Under the pieces are notes generated by a model that saw nothing but the letters and a program-made list of their open reading frames with translations, searched no databases and was not told the DNA's origin. The position numbers were made by a program, and so were the translations under genes. Positions 22,089-29,000 of a DNA stretch of 64,000 bases are shown piece by piece (within the stretch, counting starts at the first letter, position 1; each line of letters starts with the position of its first letter). This stretch comes from an uncultured Bryobacteraceae bacterium (GTDB taxonomy: Bacteria > Acidobacteriota > Terriglobia > Bryobacterales > Bryobacteraceae), in contig CALKXJ010000012.1 in the NCBI GenBank assembly GCA_938003835.1, forward strand, positions 1 through 64,000, written 5' to 3'.

Positions 22089-22802
22089 ATGGCCGCAGTC
22101 GAGGAGCTGGAGGCGAAGCTCGGCTACTCGTTTCGCGACCGGGCATTGCTCAAACAGGCGCTGACCCACCGTTCCTGGGCCTTCGAAAAAGATCCCGGGC
22201 ATCAGGGTGCCCTCAGCAATGAGCGGCTGGAGTTCCTGGGCGACGCCGTGCTCGGCCTCGTGGTGAGCGAGATCCTGATCGAGCGGCATCCGGAGCTGTC
22301 GGAAGGGCGCCTCTCGCAGCTCAAAGCGCGGCTGGTGAGCGCTCGTCACCTTCACGAGAGGGCACGCCAACTCGAGCTCGGGCCGCACCTGAACCTCGGC
22401 CGGGGCGAGGAGGTCACCGGTGGCCGGTCCAAGCCGACGCTGCTGGCCAACGCGCTCGAGGCTTTGATCGGCGCCATATACCTGGACGGCGGCATGGCTT
22501 CCGCGCGAGCGTTTATCGAATCGCGGATCCTCGCAGGCGGCGGTCTCGAGGGCACCGGCCCGGAACGCGATTTCAAGAGCCGGCTCCAGCAATTCGCTCA
22601 GACGCGTGGCCTGCCCGCGCCGCGCTACAGGACGATCTCCGCCAGCGGTCCGGATCACTGCAAGGTCTTCACGGTCGAGGTCGCCATCGGCGAGCACCTC
22701 ACAGCCCGCGCCGAAGGCAGTTCGCTGAAAGCCGCCGGACAGCGCGCCGCCGAGATCCTGCTGAACCGCCTGAGCGAGGAGCAACCGCCCAAGGATCAGT
22801 GA
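22089..22802 (+). CDS. rnc: Ribonuclease III
   Basis: Double-strand-specific endoribonuclease that processes rRNA and structured mRNAs. At 237 residues it has the normal length. The RNase III domain (about 5-155) carries the signature NERLEFLGDAVL (44-55) with the catalytic acidic residues. The double-stranded-RNA-binding domain (160-230) ends with EGSSLKAAGQRAAEILL. The second catalytic motif reads ANALEALIGAIYLD, so the position of E. coli Asp114 is Asn121 here while Glu124 (E. coli Glu117) is kept. It converges with motB and the two genes overlap by 7 bases at their stops. Confidence 0.94.
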   Translation: MAAVEELEAKLGYSFRDRALLKQALTHRSWAFEKDPGHQGALSNERLEFLGDAVLGLVVSEILIERHPELSEGRLSQLKARLVSARHLHERARQLELGPHLNLGRGEEVTGGRSKPTLLANALEALIGAIYLDGGMASARAFIESRILAGGGLEGTGPERDFKSRLQQFAQTRGLPAPRYRTISASGPDHCKVFTVEVAIGEHLTARAEGSSLKAAGQRAAEILLNRLSEEQPPKDQ

Positions 22803-23650
22803 CGCGCCGCCGATTTCGGCTTCGCGGCTGCGGTCTCGGCCTCGACCGTATGCGGCTCGGCGCGCACGCCGACCTCGCTCAGCAGCACGATGTCGACGCG
22901 GCGGTTTCGGGCCCGGCCCTCCTCGGTGTCGTTGGTGTCGGCCGGGGCATTGTCGGCGTAGGCGGCAATCGACATGCGGCTCCGCGGCACCCCATAGCGG
23001 CCCGCAAACAGCTCCAGCATCGCGATGGCGCGCGCCGCCGACAGCTCCCAGTTTGAGCGAAACCGTTCGTTGTGGATGGGCACCGAATCGGTGTGGCCCT
23101 CCATCCGAATGGGATTGGTCAGGCGTTTGATGACCACTGCCAGCTTGTCGATGGAGGCGATGTTGGCCTGCGAGATCGTCGCCTCACCGGAGGGGAAGAA
23201 AGCAGCCTCCCGTAAGCTCACCACCAGGCCGCGCGGCTCGAGCGAAACCGCCATCTTGCCCGCCTTCAGCTCCTCGGCCAGCTCCTGAGCCAAGATCGCC
23301 AGCGCCGCTTTGAGGTCTGCCTGGGAACCGCCGCCCAAGTCTTCGCCCCGGCCCGGCGCTTTGCCCCCGAGGAAGATCTGGCTGGCCCCGCCAGGTCCCT
23401 TCATCTGCGCGTTGCCCTGGCCCCGGTCGCCGGTGGTGCCGCCGAGCACCGCCGCCACGAGCGTCTGGAAATGGCCCTTCTCGAGCGCCTGCTTGACCGA
23501 CTCGGAGACCTGCTGCGCTTTGCCTTTATCGGTCTGCGAGCTGGCGAACATCACCACGAAGAAGGCAAACAGCAGCGTGATGAAGTCGGCGTAGGAGACC
23601 AGCCAGCGCTCGTGATTCTCATGCGGGCCGTGCTTCTTCTTTCGCGCCAT
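22796..23650 (-). CDS. motB: Flagellar motor stator protein MotB
   Basis: Stator subunit that couples ion flow to rotation and anchors to peptidoglycan. The N-terminus is basic (MARKKKHGPHENHERW), followed by one membrane helix carrying the ion-binding Asp in VSYADFITLLFAFFVVMF. After a glycine-rich plug/linker comes the OmpA-like peptidoglycan-binding domain (about 150-265) with MEGHTDSVPI and ELSAARAIAM plus RNRRVDIVL. 284 residues, normal length. It is last in the flbD-motA-motB operon, 7 bases after motA. Whether protons or sodium ions drive it cannot be told. Confidence 0.92.
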   Translation of the reverse strand: MARKKKHGPHENHERWLVSYADFITLLFAFFVVMFASSQTDKGKAQQVSESVKQALEKGHFQTLVAAVLGGTTGDRGQGNAQMKGPGGASQIFLGGKAPGRGEDLGGGSQADLKAALAILAQELAEELKAGKMAVSLEPRGLVVSLREAAFFPSGEATISQANIASIDKLAVVIKRLTNPIRMEGHTDSVPIHNERFRSNWELSAARAIAMLELFAGRYGVPRSRMSIAAYADNAPADTNDTEEGRARNRRVDIVLLSEVGVRAEPHTVEAETAAAKPKSAARH

Positions 23651-23657
23651 CTCCGCT

Positions 23658-24512
23658 TTAGCCCTCCGCGGCAGCGACGGCTTCAGGGGCCTTGGCCGCC
23701 GCGCGGCCTTTGCCGGCGGGCGCCCGCTGCGGGCCTTCCTTGGCGTAGGCTTCCAGCTTGATGCGGAGCAACTTCGGGTTCAAGCCCTCGACGATGCCCA
23801 CAACCCCCTCGAGCGCCAGCTCGCGGATCAGCAGCATCTTGTGCGCGCGCGCCCGGATCTTGCTCGCCGCCGGCAGAAAGAAAACGTTGGCCGAACCCAC
23901 GCCATAGACCGTGGCCACGAACGCCACGGCGATGCCATGGCCCACCTCGTCGATATTGGCCAGGTTCTTCATCACCTGGATCAGGCCGAGTACCGCCCCG
24001 ATGATGCCGATGGTCGGCGCGAAGCCGCCCGCCGCCTCGAACACCTTCGCCTGCGCCTCCACCTGCTGCTCCTCCATGGCGATCTCCAGCTCCATCATCT
24101 TGCGAATCTCCTGGAGATCCGTGCCGTCGACGGCCAGATTCAGCGCCTTGCGCAGGAACGGGTCCTCGATCTGCTCGGCGTCCTGCTCGAGCGAGACGAT
24201 CCCGTTCTTGCGCGCCTTGGTGGCGTAAGTGATGATCTCGTCGATCGTCGAGGCCGGCGTGATCGTCTTGTCGAAGAACAGTCCCATGAGCTGCCTGACG
24301 GCGCCGATCACCACCGGCAGGGGCGTCGCCACCAGCACGGCGCCGATTGTTCCGCCGAAGACGATCACCGCCGCCGTGTACTGGAGGATATCTTTGAGCT
24401 CACCCCCTTCGAGGATCAGGCCGCCGACAATGCCGCCGACCGCGATCAGCAGGCCGGCAAACGTCGCCAGATCGGGCTTCCTGCCCGCCCCTTTCGCTTT
24501 CGCCTCCGCCAT
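23658..24512 (-). CDS. motA: Flagellar motor stator protein MotA
   Basis: 284-residue stator partner of MotB with four membrane segments: about 18-36 (FAGLLIAVGGIVGGLILEG), 43-66, 165-185 (FAPTIGIIGAVLGLIQVM) and 195-215 (GIAVAFVATVYGVGSANVF). The conserved P-T-x-G-I-x-G motif of helix 3 and the cytoplasmic loop with charged residues (RKNGIVSLE, EEIRKMMELE-like) are present. The C-terminus has an extra Ala/Lys-rich tail. It is separated by 16 bases from flbD upstream and 7 from motB downstream, so the three genes are one operon. Confidence 0.92.
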   Translation of the reverse strand: MAEAKAKGAGRKPDLATFAGLLIAVGGIVGGLILEGGELKDILQYTAAVIVFGGTIGAVLVATPLPVVIGAVRQLMGLFFDKTITPASTIDEIITYATKARKNGIVSLEQDAEQIEDPFLRKALNLAVDGTDLQEIRKMMELEIAMEEQQVEAQAKVFEAAGGFAPTIGIIGAVLGLIQVMKNLANIDEVGHGIAVAFVATVYGVGSANVFFLPAASKIRARAHKMLLIRELALEGVVGIVEGLNPKLLRIKLEAYAKEGPQRAPAGKGRAAAKAPEAVAAAEG

Positions 24513-24528: not shown

Positions 24529-24756
24529 CTAGCCGCCCGTCCCGAAAGACGCCTCCGTCAAGACACGCTCGGCGCCGTCCTGGATCATCCGGCGGAACTC
24601 CACCACGCGCCGTATCACTTCCTCGGGGCTTTCCAGAACGACGAACTTCTGCCCCGTCGTCAGGCTGATGACGGTGTCGGGCGTCACCTCGACGTGCTCG
24701 ATCAGGTCCGAGTTGAGCACAAGCGGGACGTGATTGATGCGGGTGAGCCGGATCAT
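24529..24756 (-). CDS. flbD: Flagellar protein FlbD
   Basis: 75-residue FlbD-family protein, an almost invariant neighbour of motA in many phyla. The sequence starts with the family pattern MIRLTRINHVPLVLNSDLIE and continues with HVEVTPDTVISLTTGQKFVV, then a helix with EEVIRRVVEFRR. Its molecular role is not settled. GGAGGTG is 6-7 bases before the ATG. It heads the stator operon and is divergent from the sigma-28-promoted gene next door. Confidence 0.92.
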   Translation of the reverse strand: MIRLTRINHVPLVLNSDLIEHVEVTPDTVISLTTGQKFVVLESPEEVIRRVVEFRRMIQDGAERVLTEASFGTGG

Positions 24757-24818
24757 GAGATCACCTCCCGCATCTTCTCATCGACCCCGGGCGGACCGGT
24801 GAGCACACAAAAAAACCT

Positions 24819-24844
24819 TAAAAACATCCCACGGCGGCCGATAA
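24819..24844 (+). promoter_or_regulatory. Sigma-28 (FliA) type promoter
   Basis: TAAAAACA (24819-24826), 10 bases, then GCCGATAA (24837-24844). The FliA consensus is TAAAGTTT, 11 bases, GCCGATAA, so the -10 element matches 8 of 8 and the spacer is one base short. The predicted start point near 24851 leaves a leader of about ten bases that contains the ribosome site AAGGAAGG before the ATG at 24862. It lies in the gap between flbD (minus) and the FliT-like gene (plus). Confidence 0.75.
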
Positions 24845-24861
24845 GAGCAGCGAAGGAAGGG

Positions 24862-25179
24862 ATGAGGCGCCCGAAGCAATTTCGTCCACCGCATCAGGCG
24901 GCCCGCGCCATACTCGAGGCGGCAGCGGCGGGCGATTGGACTGTCATGGACCAGCGCCTGGCCGAGAGCCAAGCCCTCACCCCCGGAGCCGGCTACGCCA
25001 GCACGCTCGAGGCAGAGCGAGCCGAGCTGCTCGCCGCGGTCGCTGCCGACCTCCGGCAGGCCTGGCGGGAGCCGACGTCCGACCCGGCCAGACTATCCGA
25101 AATCCGCGCCTCGTTGGCCCTGCTCGGGCACCTGGCGACCTCGCCGGGCGCCAATCAGCCGGGTTTGCGTCCGATGTAG
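24862..25179 (+). CDS. Small FliT-like flagellar protein, probably FliA-controlled
   Basis: 105-residue protein with no signal or membrane segment and mainly helical. The stretch ARAILEAAAAGDWTVMDQRL (residues about 14-33) has the pattern of FliT export chaperones, helix-AxxGDWxxL followed by a charged helix, and a second helical region runs at about 45-96. FliT-like proteins hold FliD and other late flagellar exports. The promoter just upstream is a close match to sigma-28, which controls late flagellar genes, and flbD-motA-motB lies on the other side of that promoter. The family link is from pattern only. The gene overlaps the convergent methyltransferase by 25 bases. Confidence 0.65.
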   Translation: MRRPKQFRPPHQAARAILEAAAAGDWTVMDQRLAESQALTPGAGYASTLEAERAELLAAVAADLRQAWREPTSDPARLSEIRASLALLGHLATSPGANQPGLRPM

Positions 25180-26087
25180 AGGGTCGAGACGGCGTGGAAG
25201 TACAGGTCGTCGCGCTGGAAAACGTAGGCCGGATCTTCGGGGTCGAGCAGCCGAGCCACCACCTGCCGGTCGGCTTCCGAGACTCCCTCCAGAGCCGCAC
25301 GCCGGCGCAAATACCCCGCCAGGTAATTCCGTGTGAGCTCATCGAACGGCGGTTCCCCCTCGTGCAGGAAGGACCGCGCCGTGACTCCCACCAGGCCTGC
25401 CTCCCGCAGCAGGCGCTTCCAGCCGTAGGGGTAGGGGCCCCGCTGCTGGCGATCCGCGACCAACCAACGAAGCAGAGCGCACTCCAGCCGCCCCTCCAGC
25501 CCGGGCTCGCCCACCCCGACATCGGTCGGCAGCCAGCTCATCGAACCGGCACGATTTTCCCGAACCACCAGCCGCCCCCCGGGCTTGATCATCCGCACGA
25601 GAATTCGAGCGGCACCCGGCAGATCACCTAAAGTGTGCAGGACATGGCTGCACCAGACCAGGCTGAAAGAGTTCTCCGGGTAGGGCTGGTCGAACAGGTC
25701 CGCAGTGCACACTTCGACGTTTCGCCCCAACCCGGCGGACGCTAGGCGGCCTTTGGCGATGTCCACCCGCGCGGGGTCGCGGTCGAAACCGGCTACGCTG
25801 CCAGCAAAGCGGGCTAAGAGGAGCAGGTGGCCGCCATAGCCGCAACCGGCGTCCAGAACACGGTCCTGCTTGCCGAGCCCAAGCGAGCGAATAATCTCCA
25901 GATCGAACCGATCCCAAAAGTGCGAGACCAGCTCCCAGTGCGGCTTGGCGCCTTCGGCCTCGCGCGGGGCGTGCGGCACGGAGGCCGACACCGCCCCGCT
26001 TGCTCCCAGCAGACCGGCGAAATGGCGCCGGCTCATAGACCGGCGCCCGTTCGCGGCGTCAGTGACGGATGAGACACACCGCTTCAT
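25155..26087 (-). CDS. Class I SAM-dependent methyltransferase with N-terminal Tat-like signal
   Basis: About 310 residues. Motif I is DRVLDAGCGYGGHLL, the acidic residue after strand 2 is AGFDRDPARVD, followed by motif II-like VEVCTADLF and the strand-4 LVWCSHVLHTLGD. It belongs to the broad UbiE/Methyltransf_11 group, so the substrate is unknown. The N-terminus has SRRHFAGLLGASGAVSAS, a twin-arginine-type signal, rare for a methyltransferase since SAM is cytoplasmic. The start is uncertain: ATG at 26087 is 5 bases after the receptor gene's stop; ATG at 26036 would begin right at the twin-arginine motif. Last gene of the block that starts at 31079. Confidence 0.75.
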   Translation of the reverse strand: MKRCVSSVTDAANGRRSMSRRHFAGLLGASGAVSASVPHAPREAEGAKPHWELVSHFWDRFDLEIIRSLGLGKQDRVLDAGCGYGGHLLLLARFAGSVAGFDRDPARVDIAKGRLASAGLGRNVEVCTADLFDQPYPENSFSLVWCSHVLHTLGDLPGAARILVRMIKPGGRLVVRENRAGSMSWLPTDVGVGEPGLEGRLECALLRWLVADRQQRGPYPYGWKRLLREAGLVGVTARSFLHEGEPPFDELTRNYLAGYLRRRAALEGVSEADRQVVARLLDPEDPAYVFQRDDLYFHAVSTLYIGRKPG

Positions 26088-26091
26088 GACC

Positions 26092-29000
26092 CTAGAAGGC
26101 GTAGCGCAGCAAGAACTGCATGGCGCGTGGCGCCACCAGCAGCGAGGAATATTGGCCGAAGGGGCCACCGGTGCCCGCCACGAGCGAGAGGCCCCGCGTG
26201 TCGAAACGGACCGCGTTGAGGGCGTTGAAGAGCTCCCAGCGAAACGTCAGCTCGTGGCGCTCCGAACCGGGCAAGGCAAAGCTCTTGCCGATGCCCAGAT
26301 CGAGCGCCAACAGACCGTCACCGCGCACATTGTTGCGCGCCCCGGTCTGCCCCATCAGAGTCGGGCCGAAGCTTCGCGCGGCCGCAGCCGGATCCTCGAA
26401 GACGTTCGGCGCCAGGGCGCCCGTCTTGTTTCGGCCGGTCCTCGGCGCCGGGCCGGTGGGCGAGGCGAAGCCCTGGAAGTAGTAGCTGGTTGCATAGCCG
26501 TACCCGTTCAGCACGGTTGCCGGAAACCCTGAGGAAACGCGGAAGATGCCGGCCAGTTGCCAGCCGCCGGCGAGGGCATTGGCTGCCGGGCCGGCCGATC
26601 CCCAAAAGCGCCGGTTGCGACCAAAGGGCAGCCGCCACAGCCAATGCGCATTCGTGTTATGCCGCAAGTCATAGTCAGACGGACCGCGCATCTGCGCGGG
26701 ACTCCAAGAGTTGATGATGTTGGCGCGACCGAACGGATCGGTGCGCTCCACTCCGCTCGTCCAGTCCATGCTGCGACTCAAAGTGTAGTTGACGTCAAAC
26801 TCCAGATCGCCTCTCCAAGCGCCCCGCAGGCTGACCTGAAGAGCATGATAGTCGGACTTGCCAAGCGACCTCCAGGAGAACAGCGACGAGAACTGGTCAT
26901 GGAAAAGGGCATACGGCCCGAAGCGGCTGCACGCCGGACGGCATTGAATGTCCACAGCCGGCAAGGCTCCTCGAACGGGGTTCGTCGGATGGAGCTGGCC
27001 GAACAGAAAGTAGGCCGTTTGCGTCGGCGTCAGGCGCCGCGCCGGCTCCACGCCCGGATTGAAGCGTGCAAACTGCGGGTAGAGCCGGCTCAGATCGCTC
27101 GCCGAAAGCGCGAAACCCGGGAAGAGGTTGTCCCAGAAAGCGCTCTCCCGCACAGCAGAGAAGGCGTTGGGGCCCACAGCGATCAGTTCATTGACCGCCT
27201 CGAACAGCTCGATCCCCGTCTGCGGGTCCCGCCAGTTGATCGGCGCGGCAGCGTCGAACAGCGCAAGCTGCTTGTAGCCAAACCGGCCCACATAGGCGGT
27301 CTCCAGCGTCAGGCGTCCAGCGAGCTGTCGCTGCCAGGAGACCGTGGGCGCCAGCGCGTACGGCGTGCGCAGATGAATGTCCGGGGCGGGAACGATCGCT
27401 CCCACCTGTCCCGGGCCCGGTTTTGGGTAAAGCGACGGAAACCGGAACGGGGGCGCCGGCGGCAGCAGTCCCGGCGGCACGACATCGATGGCGGTCAGAC
27501 GCGGCGCCGTCGCAATGGAAAACTGGCCCGCCGGCGACACCAGGATGCTGCCCAGGCCGAATGATCCCACCGCCTCGTAATAGGCCGCCGAAGCCGTGCC
27601 GACACGGTCATAGTAGGTGGTGAATCCGACGCGGACCGAGGAATTCTGCGGGCCGCCCGTCAGCCAGCGCACCCAGCCCGTCTGGGCAGCCGGCGACCAG
27701 GCGAGGGACAGGCGAGGCGCCAAATTGTTGCGGTCCCACTCATAAAAGCCGGGACGGCCGTGCCGCGGGCCGGCGAGCAGGTAGGCCAGCGAGGGAGCCG
27801 CTGAGGCTGGTAGGCCGGCCGCCGCGTTGGCGCGTCGCAGCTCGAACCATTGGCCGATCGGAATGTGCGTGTTCACCTGCAAACCCTGCGTCTCGGCAAG
27901 CGGCGAGTACAAAGAGTAGCGGACGCCGAGATTGATCTGCACATTGTCCCGCAGCCGCCAGCCATCCTGGAAGTAGATCTCCGCCTCGGTCGTGCGATAC
28001 CGGCGGCGGACCGGCTCGCCTTCGGGAATCAGTCGTCCGTCGCTCGTGTAGTTGTAGGCGGCATTGCCCTGCGAAACCACACCCATGGCAATGATGGCCG
28101 CACGAACGAAATCGTTGCGGTTGGTCGCGGCAATGTCTGCCGGCAGGATTTCATAGCCTAGATTGGCCAGACGCGGCTGCTGGGTAACCATGAGGGTGCG
28201 GTTCGATTCGAAGTTATACCGGTTGTTCCCGATCCAGCGGAAATTCCCCCCGAATTGAAGCAGGTGCCGCCCAGTGGCGTGCCAGGACCAATCTCCGGTG
28301 AGATTATGCGTCGGCGTACGGCGACCCCGACTGTAAGTGAACGGAATGGGCGCGCCGATGCCGCCGCCAAAGCTGAATTGCGGTCCCGTCGAGGTGCCGA
28401 TCTCATCCAAGGCGAGTCGGGTCAACCCGTAGCGGATGGTCTGGGTCCACTGCGCGCCCCAGATCGAATTCCAGCCGGCGACGAATCCCTTGCTCGTGTC
28501 GCGCGAAACGATGGGAGGGGGCGTGCCTGGGAGTTGCAGCGCCGCCTCGCCGCGATCGTTTTGCAGGCTGGCTCGCAGCCACAGATTCTGCGAATCGCTC
28601 GCACGCATGTCGAGCCGGGCGAGCGCCGTGTTGGTCGCATCCCGCACCGGCGAATTGAACCGGAAACCGCCAAAGTTCAGCGGATCGATCGTGGGACGGT
28701 CATTCGGCAACGGAAACCGGCGAAGCAGTTCGAGCGCCACCGGATTGGGGCCGATGCCCCTGGGATCGATGGTACGCAGTTGTTCGGGGGAGATCGTTCG
28801 CACCTCGCCGGAAGCGGTGAGGTACTTTACCGTACCGTTCCGGAATGCCTCGGTCGGGACGTTGCGCAACACGGTGGCCTCGCTGGCGTCGCGGCGCCCC
28901 TCATAGGCGGCAAAGAAGTGGAGTCGCGACGGAATCAGCGGCCCTCCGACGGAGGCGCCGAAGACATTCCGCAACAGCTTCGGCCGGCGGGCTCCGATGC

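Follow-up and report, generated by a model that had tools for sequence, protein, structure and literature searches.

Does a short gene that stands back to back with flagellar genes belong to the flagellar system itself and, if so, what might its product do there? The gene, which we call X, lies in a 64,000-nucleotide stretch of DNA (the window) and runs on the forward strand from an ATG at 24,862 to a stop at 25,179; this yields the 105-residue product described in an earlier note on this DNA, for which a structure model predicts a four-helix protein. The mechanical reading frame is longer (316 residues, from 24,229); its initial portion lies antisense to motA and flbD, and hence the start downstream of the promoter discussed below is the sensible one. 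The divergent arrangement stands with all three neighbors confirmed by Pfam: flbD (24,529–24,756; FlbD, 86.3 bits), motA (23,658–24,512; MotA_ExbB and MotA_N) and motB (22,796–23,650; MotB_plug and OmpA) are all on the reverse strand. From the other side, a class I methyltransferase gene (25,155–26,168, reverse strand) converges on X and shares a 25-base overlap with its 3′ end.

The region in front of X carries a predicted sigma-28 promoter. Its −10 element, GCCGATAA (24,837–24,844, forward strand), is recognized by sequence, by the genome pattern scan and from relatives; it occurs twice in the 64-kb window and agrees with the published −10 consensus, as the earlier note had proposed. Between it and the ATG lie 17 nucleotides, including a likely ribosome-binding sequence, AAGGAAGG (24,853–24,860, forward strand). 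The same note had placed TAAAAACA 10 bases 5′ of the −10 element, and the positions are as claimed; this octamer (24,819–24,826) overlaps what we regard as the −35 element, CTTAAA (24,817–24,822, forward strand), for which the relatives give the consensus YTCAAA. The sigma-28 consensus quoted in PMC2859248 is TAAAGTTT-n11-GCCGATAA, so that a 10-base spacer is one base short; with TTAA (24,818–24,821) as the −35 core, which is the register common to the relatives, the spacing becomes that of E. coli. A weak sigma-28-like −10 element, CGATGAG (24,777–24,783, reverse strand), faces flbD, and no well-placed −35 element was seen for it in this genome.

A scan of the genome for the same promoter, a check that the earlier note had suggested, linked X to known late flagellar genes. 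In the draft assembly (5.0 Mb, 38 contigs) the strict pattern TAAA-N14-16-GCCGATAA has two sites, one before X and the other before fliD, against one match for a backward-pattern control. The looser pattern AAA-N14-17-CGATAAG returned 16 rows representing 12 distinct places (two matches for the backward control): four precede X, fliD, flaG and fliS, and at six of the remaining eight no gene was recognized as flagellar by reading, the other two (C6 and C13) having been left out of that reading. Direct reading further located CCGATAAG upstream of both flgK and fliC, each identified by Pfam. This box is thus common to six promoters of one genome, those of X, fliD, fliC, flaG, fliS and flgK, with a −35 element that is most often YTYAAR-like and lies 15–16 bases 5′ of it. 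The fliA gene, whose possible absence the earlier note had raised, is present at C20:173599–174264 (TIGR02479, 243.4 bits; cut-off 189.6). Another sigma factor of the FliA/WhiG type (C5:30953–31612) also exceeds this cut-off with 220.0 bits, and both are candidates for reading these promoters. The genome also has flgM, as a separate gene.

The promoter is likewise seen in relatives. In a first set, 61 genomes of the same family, 55 encode FlbD, at 59 loci in all, and 33 of the 59 loci have a divergent X-family frame (32 by iterative profile and one, L062 at a contig end, by eye, with an E-value of 0.065 in the profile search). A forward CGATRAG within 180 nucleotides is present at 25 of these 33 loci and at none of the 26 that lack a divergent X (Fisher 5e-10, relatedness ignored). 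The 25 sites, when aligned, display YTCAAA at −22 to −17 (counted from the C of CGATRAG) followed by CGATRAG. At least six of the 26 loci without a divergent X (L033, L037, L038, L061, L074 and L079) come from genomes that have X at a greater distance or in another place, so that the box goes with X and not with flbD. At flbD loci that lack a divergent X (L035, L042, L082 and others), flbD often seems to be preceded by a different gene of the same orientation that reaches into it, the end of which resembles, by eye, that of a MerR-type regulator. The strict box is missing at eight of the 33 loci, with near forms, such as CCGATATG and CCGAAAAG, recognizable by eye at four of the eight. On the flbD side, a sigma-28-like box, CTYATCG, facing flbD within 60 nucleotides occurs at 32 of the 59 loci, regardless of X (15/33 with a divergent X and 17/26 without); hence, where X is present, the intergenic region would often hold a pair of divergent late promoters.

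A site model built from this first set was applied to a second set of 39 X loci picked by protein profile. It gave p < 0.05 at 25 of them, as against 37 of 571 random windows of the same loci, and missed that level at 14; CGATRAG itself was present at 19/39 loci versus 11/571 windows. From these counts the best boxes of L141 (in the 25 and the 19) and L178 (in the 19) are to be discounted as they fall inside flbD; L141 has another CGATAAG closer to the start of X, by eye. Ten loci have X behind flgL, and among these only L157 reached p < 0.05 and two had CGATRAG (4/992 random windows); the form AAA-N13-17-CGATR within 80 nucleotides, picked after the sequences had been seen, is present at eight of the ten versus 9/992 random windows of equal length. 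The genome, the first set of relatives and the second set therefore all support the earlier proposal of a sigma-28 promoter and of flagellar control for a gene that has no family assignment. On this sequence evidence we consider it very probable that the promoter is of the sigma-28 type and that X is a class 3 member. In the literature, as judged by titles and abstract openings, we found neither X nor sigma-28 promoters of its family.

X is protein-coding. In 29 tested pairs of its members dN is less than dS; in closer pairs dN and dS are 0.13 and 0.85, 0.22 and 1.18, and 0.31 and 0.81, with dN/dS around 0.15–0.4. An alignment of 28 of the 32 detected members (L041, L050, L068 and L073 left out) shows 19–37% identity to the window protein, an invariant E52, nearly invariant L88 and H90, and L56 and E55 kept in 25/28 and 24/28 members, respectively. 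The conserved core, ExERxELL...LLxHLA, is in the C-terminal half, and some members of 63–73 residues have little beyond it. The structure model (mean pLDDT 88.7) predicts helices at residues 10–23, 26–37, 48–69 and 75–93, and the product is apparently cytoplasmic. Comparisons of the window protein with Pfam, NCBIfam and PDB returned nothing beyond chance-level matches. When all 28 aligned members were searched, there were single-member matches only, to 16 families in Pfam (best E 0.0049) and eight in NCBIfam (best E 0.032); these families are unrelated to one another and the matches were taken as chance. A sequence profile search of PDB gave a best E-value of 0.12, to an unrelated protein. A fold search with the model recovered no significant relative (best Foldseek E 0.29), and a second fold comparison placed YmoB first (Z 8.4, rmsd 4.3, 96 aligned residues) amid many unrelated bundles. 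The fold matches are generic helical bundles and tell little; no FliT, FlgN or FlgM entry is among the best 50, a result that speaks against none of the three.

The distribution of X is confined. Of the 257 genomes of the order, 97 gave a match in the profile search, and every one of these belongs to one family, which we take to be the Bryobacteraceae of the GTDB; the matches include genomes that contributed no row to the profile (e.g., G145 at 1.3e-22). Among 396 genomes of the phylum, five match at E ≤ 0.01, one being the genome of the window; the other four (E 7e-4 to 8e-3, inside frames of 328–479 residues) were taken as chance. Named genomes, when scanned with the X protein, yielded no relative. 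In the order, flbD is present in 177 of the 257 genomes, with X and flbD together in 89, X only in eight, flbD only in 88 and neither in 72 (Fisher 1e-10, relatedness ignored), that is, X is found in 89/177 flbD-positive versus 8/80 flbD-negative genomes. As X was not detected in 88 of the 177 flbD-positive genomes, flagella can do without it; in seven of the eight X-only genomes, it is beside flagellar genes.

Of 28 further X loci, 23 have a flagellar gene no more than 3 kb away; these 28 are not a random sample, as they are mostly cases where X was not known beside flbD, was duplicated or came from an flbD-negative genome. In ten of the 28 X is directly behind flgL on the same strand, and in nine it is divergent from flbD. 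No flagellar neighbor was seen at five of the 28, three of which lie close to the end of a contig or on a contig that is short. The X of L136 has no recognized flagellar neighbors and no recognizable site; it is one of two copies in G242, the other being located behind flgL. That of L148, on a short contig, also has no recognized flagellar neighbors, and CGATAAG is present there. The fullest gene order, in L157, is flgM, flgN-like, flgK, flgL, X, fliC, fliD and fliT-like, with flgK, flgL, fliC and fliD labeled by tblastn and the others by reading. Gene calling overlooked some true genes and accepted some antisense frames; the labels that matter most were therefore verified with Pfam or tblastn, and those outside this recheck rest on reading.

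What kind of flagellar protein might X then encode? The earlier note had called it FliT-like, an assignment that Pfam, motif, tyrosine and position all tell against. FliT (PF05400), the chaperone of FliD, is like X a small helical flagellar protein under late-gene control, and GDW-like turns occur in FliT. The AxxGDW pattern is indeed present at residues 21–26 of the window protein; as a mark of FliT it fails, as the window protein is the one member of the 28 aligned that has it. In the profile comparisons that the note had recommended, none of the 28 members matched PF05400 at E ≤ 1 and X did not match FlgN (PF05130). The FliT profile has no match anywhere in this genome, and the control search found E. 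coli. According to PMC5932034 and PMC8527033, FlgN, FliS and FliT dock on FlhA via a conserved tyrosine, which in Salmonella FliT is Tyr106 in the FlhA-binding last helix (PMC5932034). In the 28 X proteins there is no conserved tyrosine, at the C-terminus or elsewhere, with no column holding more than 3/28.

Moreover, the gene next to fliD codes for another protein: X is on contig C12 and fliD on C3 of the draft assembly, where a 119-residue helical protein is encoded directly behind it (L092:8873–9229). It has counterparts behind fliD in L138, L143, L150 and L151, and such a gene is also found in relatives that carry X. This protein is likely the FliT of the lineage, missed by Pfam; its matches to FliT structures are weak (3h3m_A of Bordetella with Z 7.4, 88 aligned residues, 3.4 Å and rank 50; 3a7m_B with E 4.2), and four of five such proteins have a tyrosine in the last third, the one from this genome having none at all. 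Similarly, a 95-residue protein encoded between flgM and flgK (L101:1181–1465, on C7), with only a sub-threshold Hpt match, is likely the FlgN of the lineage, again missed by Pfam. Its gene is in the usual place in relatives as well, and a tyrosine is found in the last third of five of six members, this one included. Both labels rest on position and shape, as neither protein matches Pfam FlgN or FliT.

The other known late proteins fare no better as a name for X. FlgN, the FlgK/FlgL chaperone, is also small and helical, and X is linked to flgK-flgL in part of its family; however, X matches neither PF05130 nor the lineage's separate FlgN-like family (profile comparison P 0.25), and this identity was rejected. 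With FliS (PF02561), the flagellin chaperone, X shares the promoter box in its own genome, and it has a weak fold resemblance to 6gow_E (E 0.47), a chain of the flagellin–FliS complex; however, X does not match the Pfam family and FliS is a separate gene (95.7 bits). FlgM (PF04316), the anti-sigma-28 factor, is like X in size, as a late flagellar gene and in its C-terminal helix pair; it too was rejected, for X matches neither PF04316 nor the lineage's own FlgM, the profile comparison (hhalign, P 0.029, probability 1.7%) not being significant. In this genome and in relatives the positions of FlgM, FlgN-like, FlgK, FliC, FliS, FliD and FliT-like are filled by other genes.

X is probably a late sigma-28-controlled gene whose four-helix product would aid a filament-stage substrate or its carrier, a grading that is a compromise for the whole explanation, spanning both promoter and class 3 membership and the escort role. 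The role as such, that of a substrate escort or export-order factor, is a tentative proposal, favored because in several genera X adjoins flgL or is flanked by flgL and fliC. In Salmonella, as described in PMC8527033, completion of the hook lets FlgM leave, which frees FliA for the late genes. By its promoter, X would follow the same timing: with the hook complete and FlgM exported, the freed FliA (sigma-28) would bind the promoter that X has to itself and transcribe the gene along with fliC, fliD, flaG, fliS and flgK. The predicted small four-helix protein, conserved in its C-terminal helix pair ExERxELL/LLxHLA, might then attach to a substrate exported at the filament stage, or to the carrier of such a substrate, and help in the ordered making or export of that substrate. 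The gene order flgL-X-fliC offers FlgL or flagellin as first guesses for the partner, and the neighborhood alone is insufficient to name it. Thus, X would act like FlgN, FliS and FliT while being none of them and having no FlhA-docking tyrosine.

The main rival to this proposal is a regulator of late expression: X, made late, could be a second partner of FliA/FlgM, or a partner of another flagellar regulator, and tune class 3 genes after the filament has started. The fact that X keeps a sigma-28-like box to itself even when embedded in a series of flagellar genes (in L157 by the site model too) and the weak alignment of its C-terminal helix pair with the C-terminal part of FlgM are consistent with such a role. 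We consider it unlikely, for that alignment is not significant and FlgM is a separate gene both here and in X-bearing relatives (in L149 by Pfam with E 3.3e-4 and 21.2 bits, below the cut-off of 25; in others by reading). Next comes a motor accessory acting on MotA/MotB or the switch. In its favor, X in the window diverges from flbD-motA-motB, as it does from flbD at 33 of 59 loci, and a fliM-like gene adjoins X in L135, L139, L146, L149, L150 and L151. It is less likely still, as neither motA nor motB lies within 3 kb of X in L147, L157, L158, L159, L162 and L163 (3 kb of sequence on both sides in L157 and L158 only); at these six loci X adjoins flgL, and in L157–L159 fliC as well.

A diverged FliT, which would bind the FliD tail and carry FliD to FlhA, appears improbable. 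Such an origin would account for the small helical model, the GDW turn that connects the first and second helices in the window protein and the promoter type common to X and fliD, and the FliT-like family gives the lowest P (0.016) of the three profile comparisons; yet the probability there is just 2.9%, and the missing Pfam match, motif and tyrosine stand against it alongside the other family behind fliD with its weak FliT structure matches. As for X being a spurious frame, whose promoter would drive a non-coding transcript or nothing, the low identity between members and the lack of a database family could be so read; the dN/dS values, the confident model and the profile matches in non-contributing genomes make this scarcely credible. 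Returning to the filament-stage role, X might even be a new kind of factor of one acidobacterial family, neither a chaperone of the FlgN/FliS/FliT type nor an anti-sigma factor. It would then be a small helix bundle that serves as a checkpoint or escort, is produced only once the hook is complete and does not dock on FlhA through a tyrosine. We regard this stronger version as speculative.

As a system, X amounts to a further accessory gene, specific to its lineage, of a machine already known. Its case indicates that a promoter and the order of genes can point to a role in the flagellum when comparisons of sequence and fold fail to do so, and it has brought to light the FlgN-like and FliT-like genes missed by Pfam. 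With six promoters sharing CCGATAAG and the YTYAAR-like −35 element, further class 3 genes become callable. X itself is small and would go without a name in annotation; it has the look of a genuine, conserved flagellar gene, and it adds a conserved, unnamed member to the late flagellar set of soil acidobacteria known here largely from metagenome assemblies.
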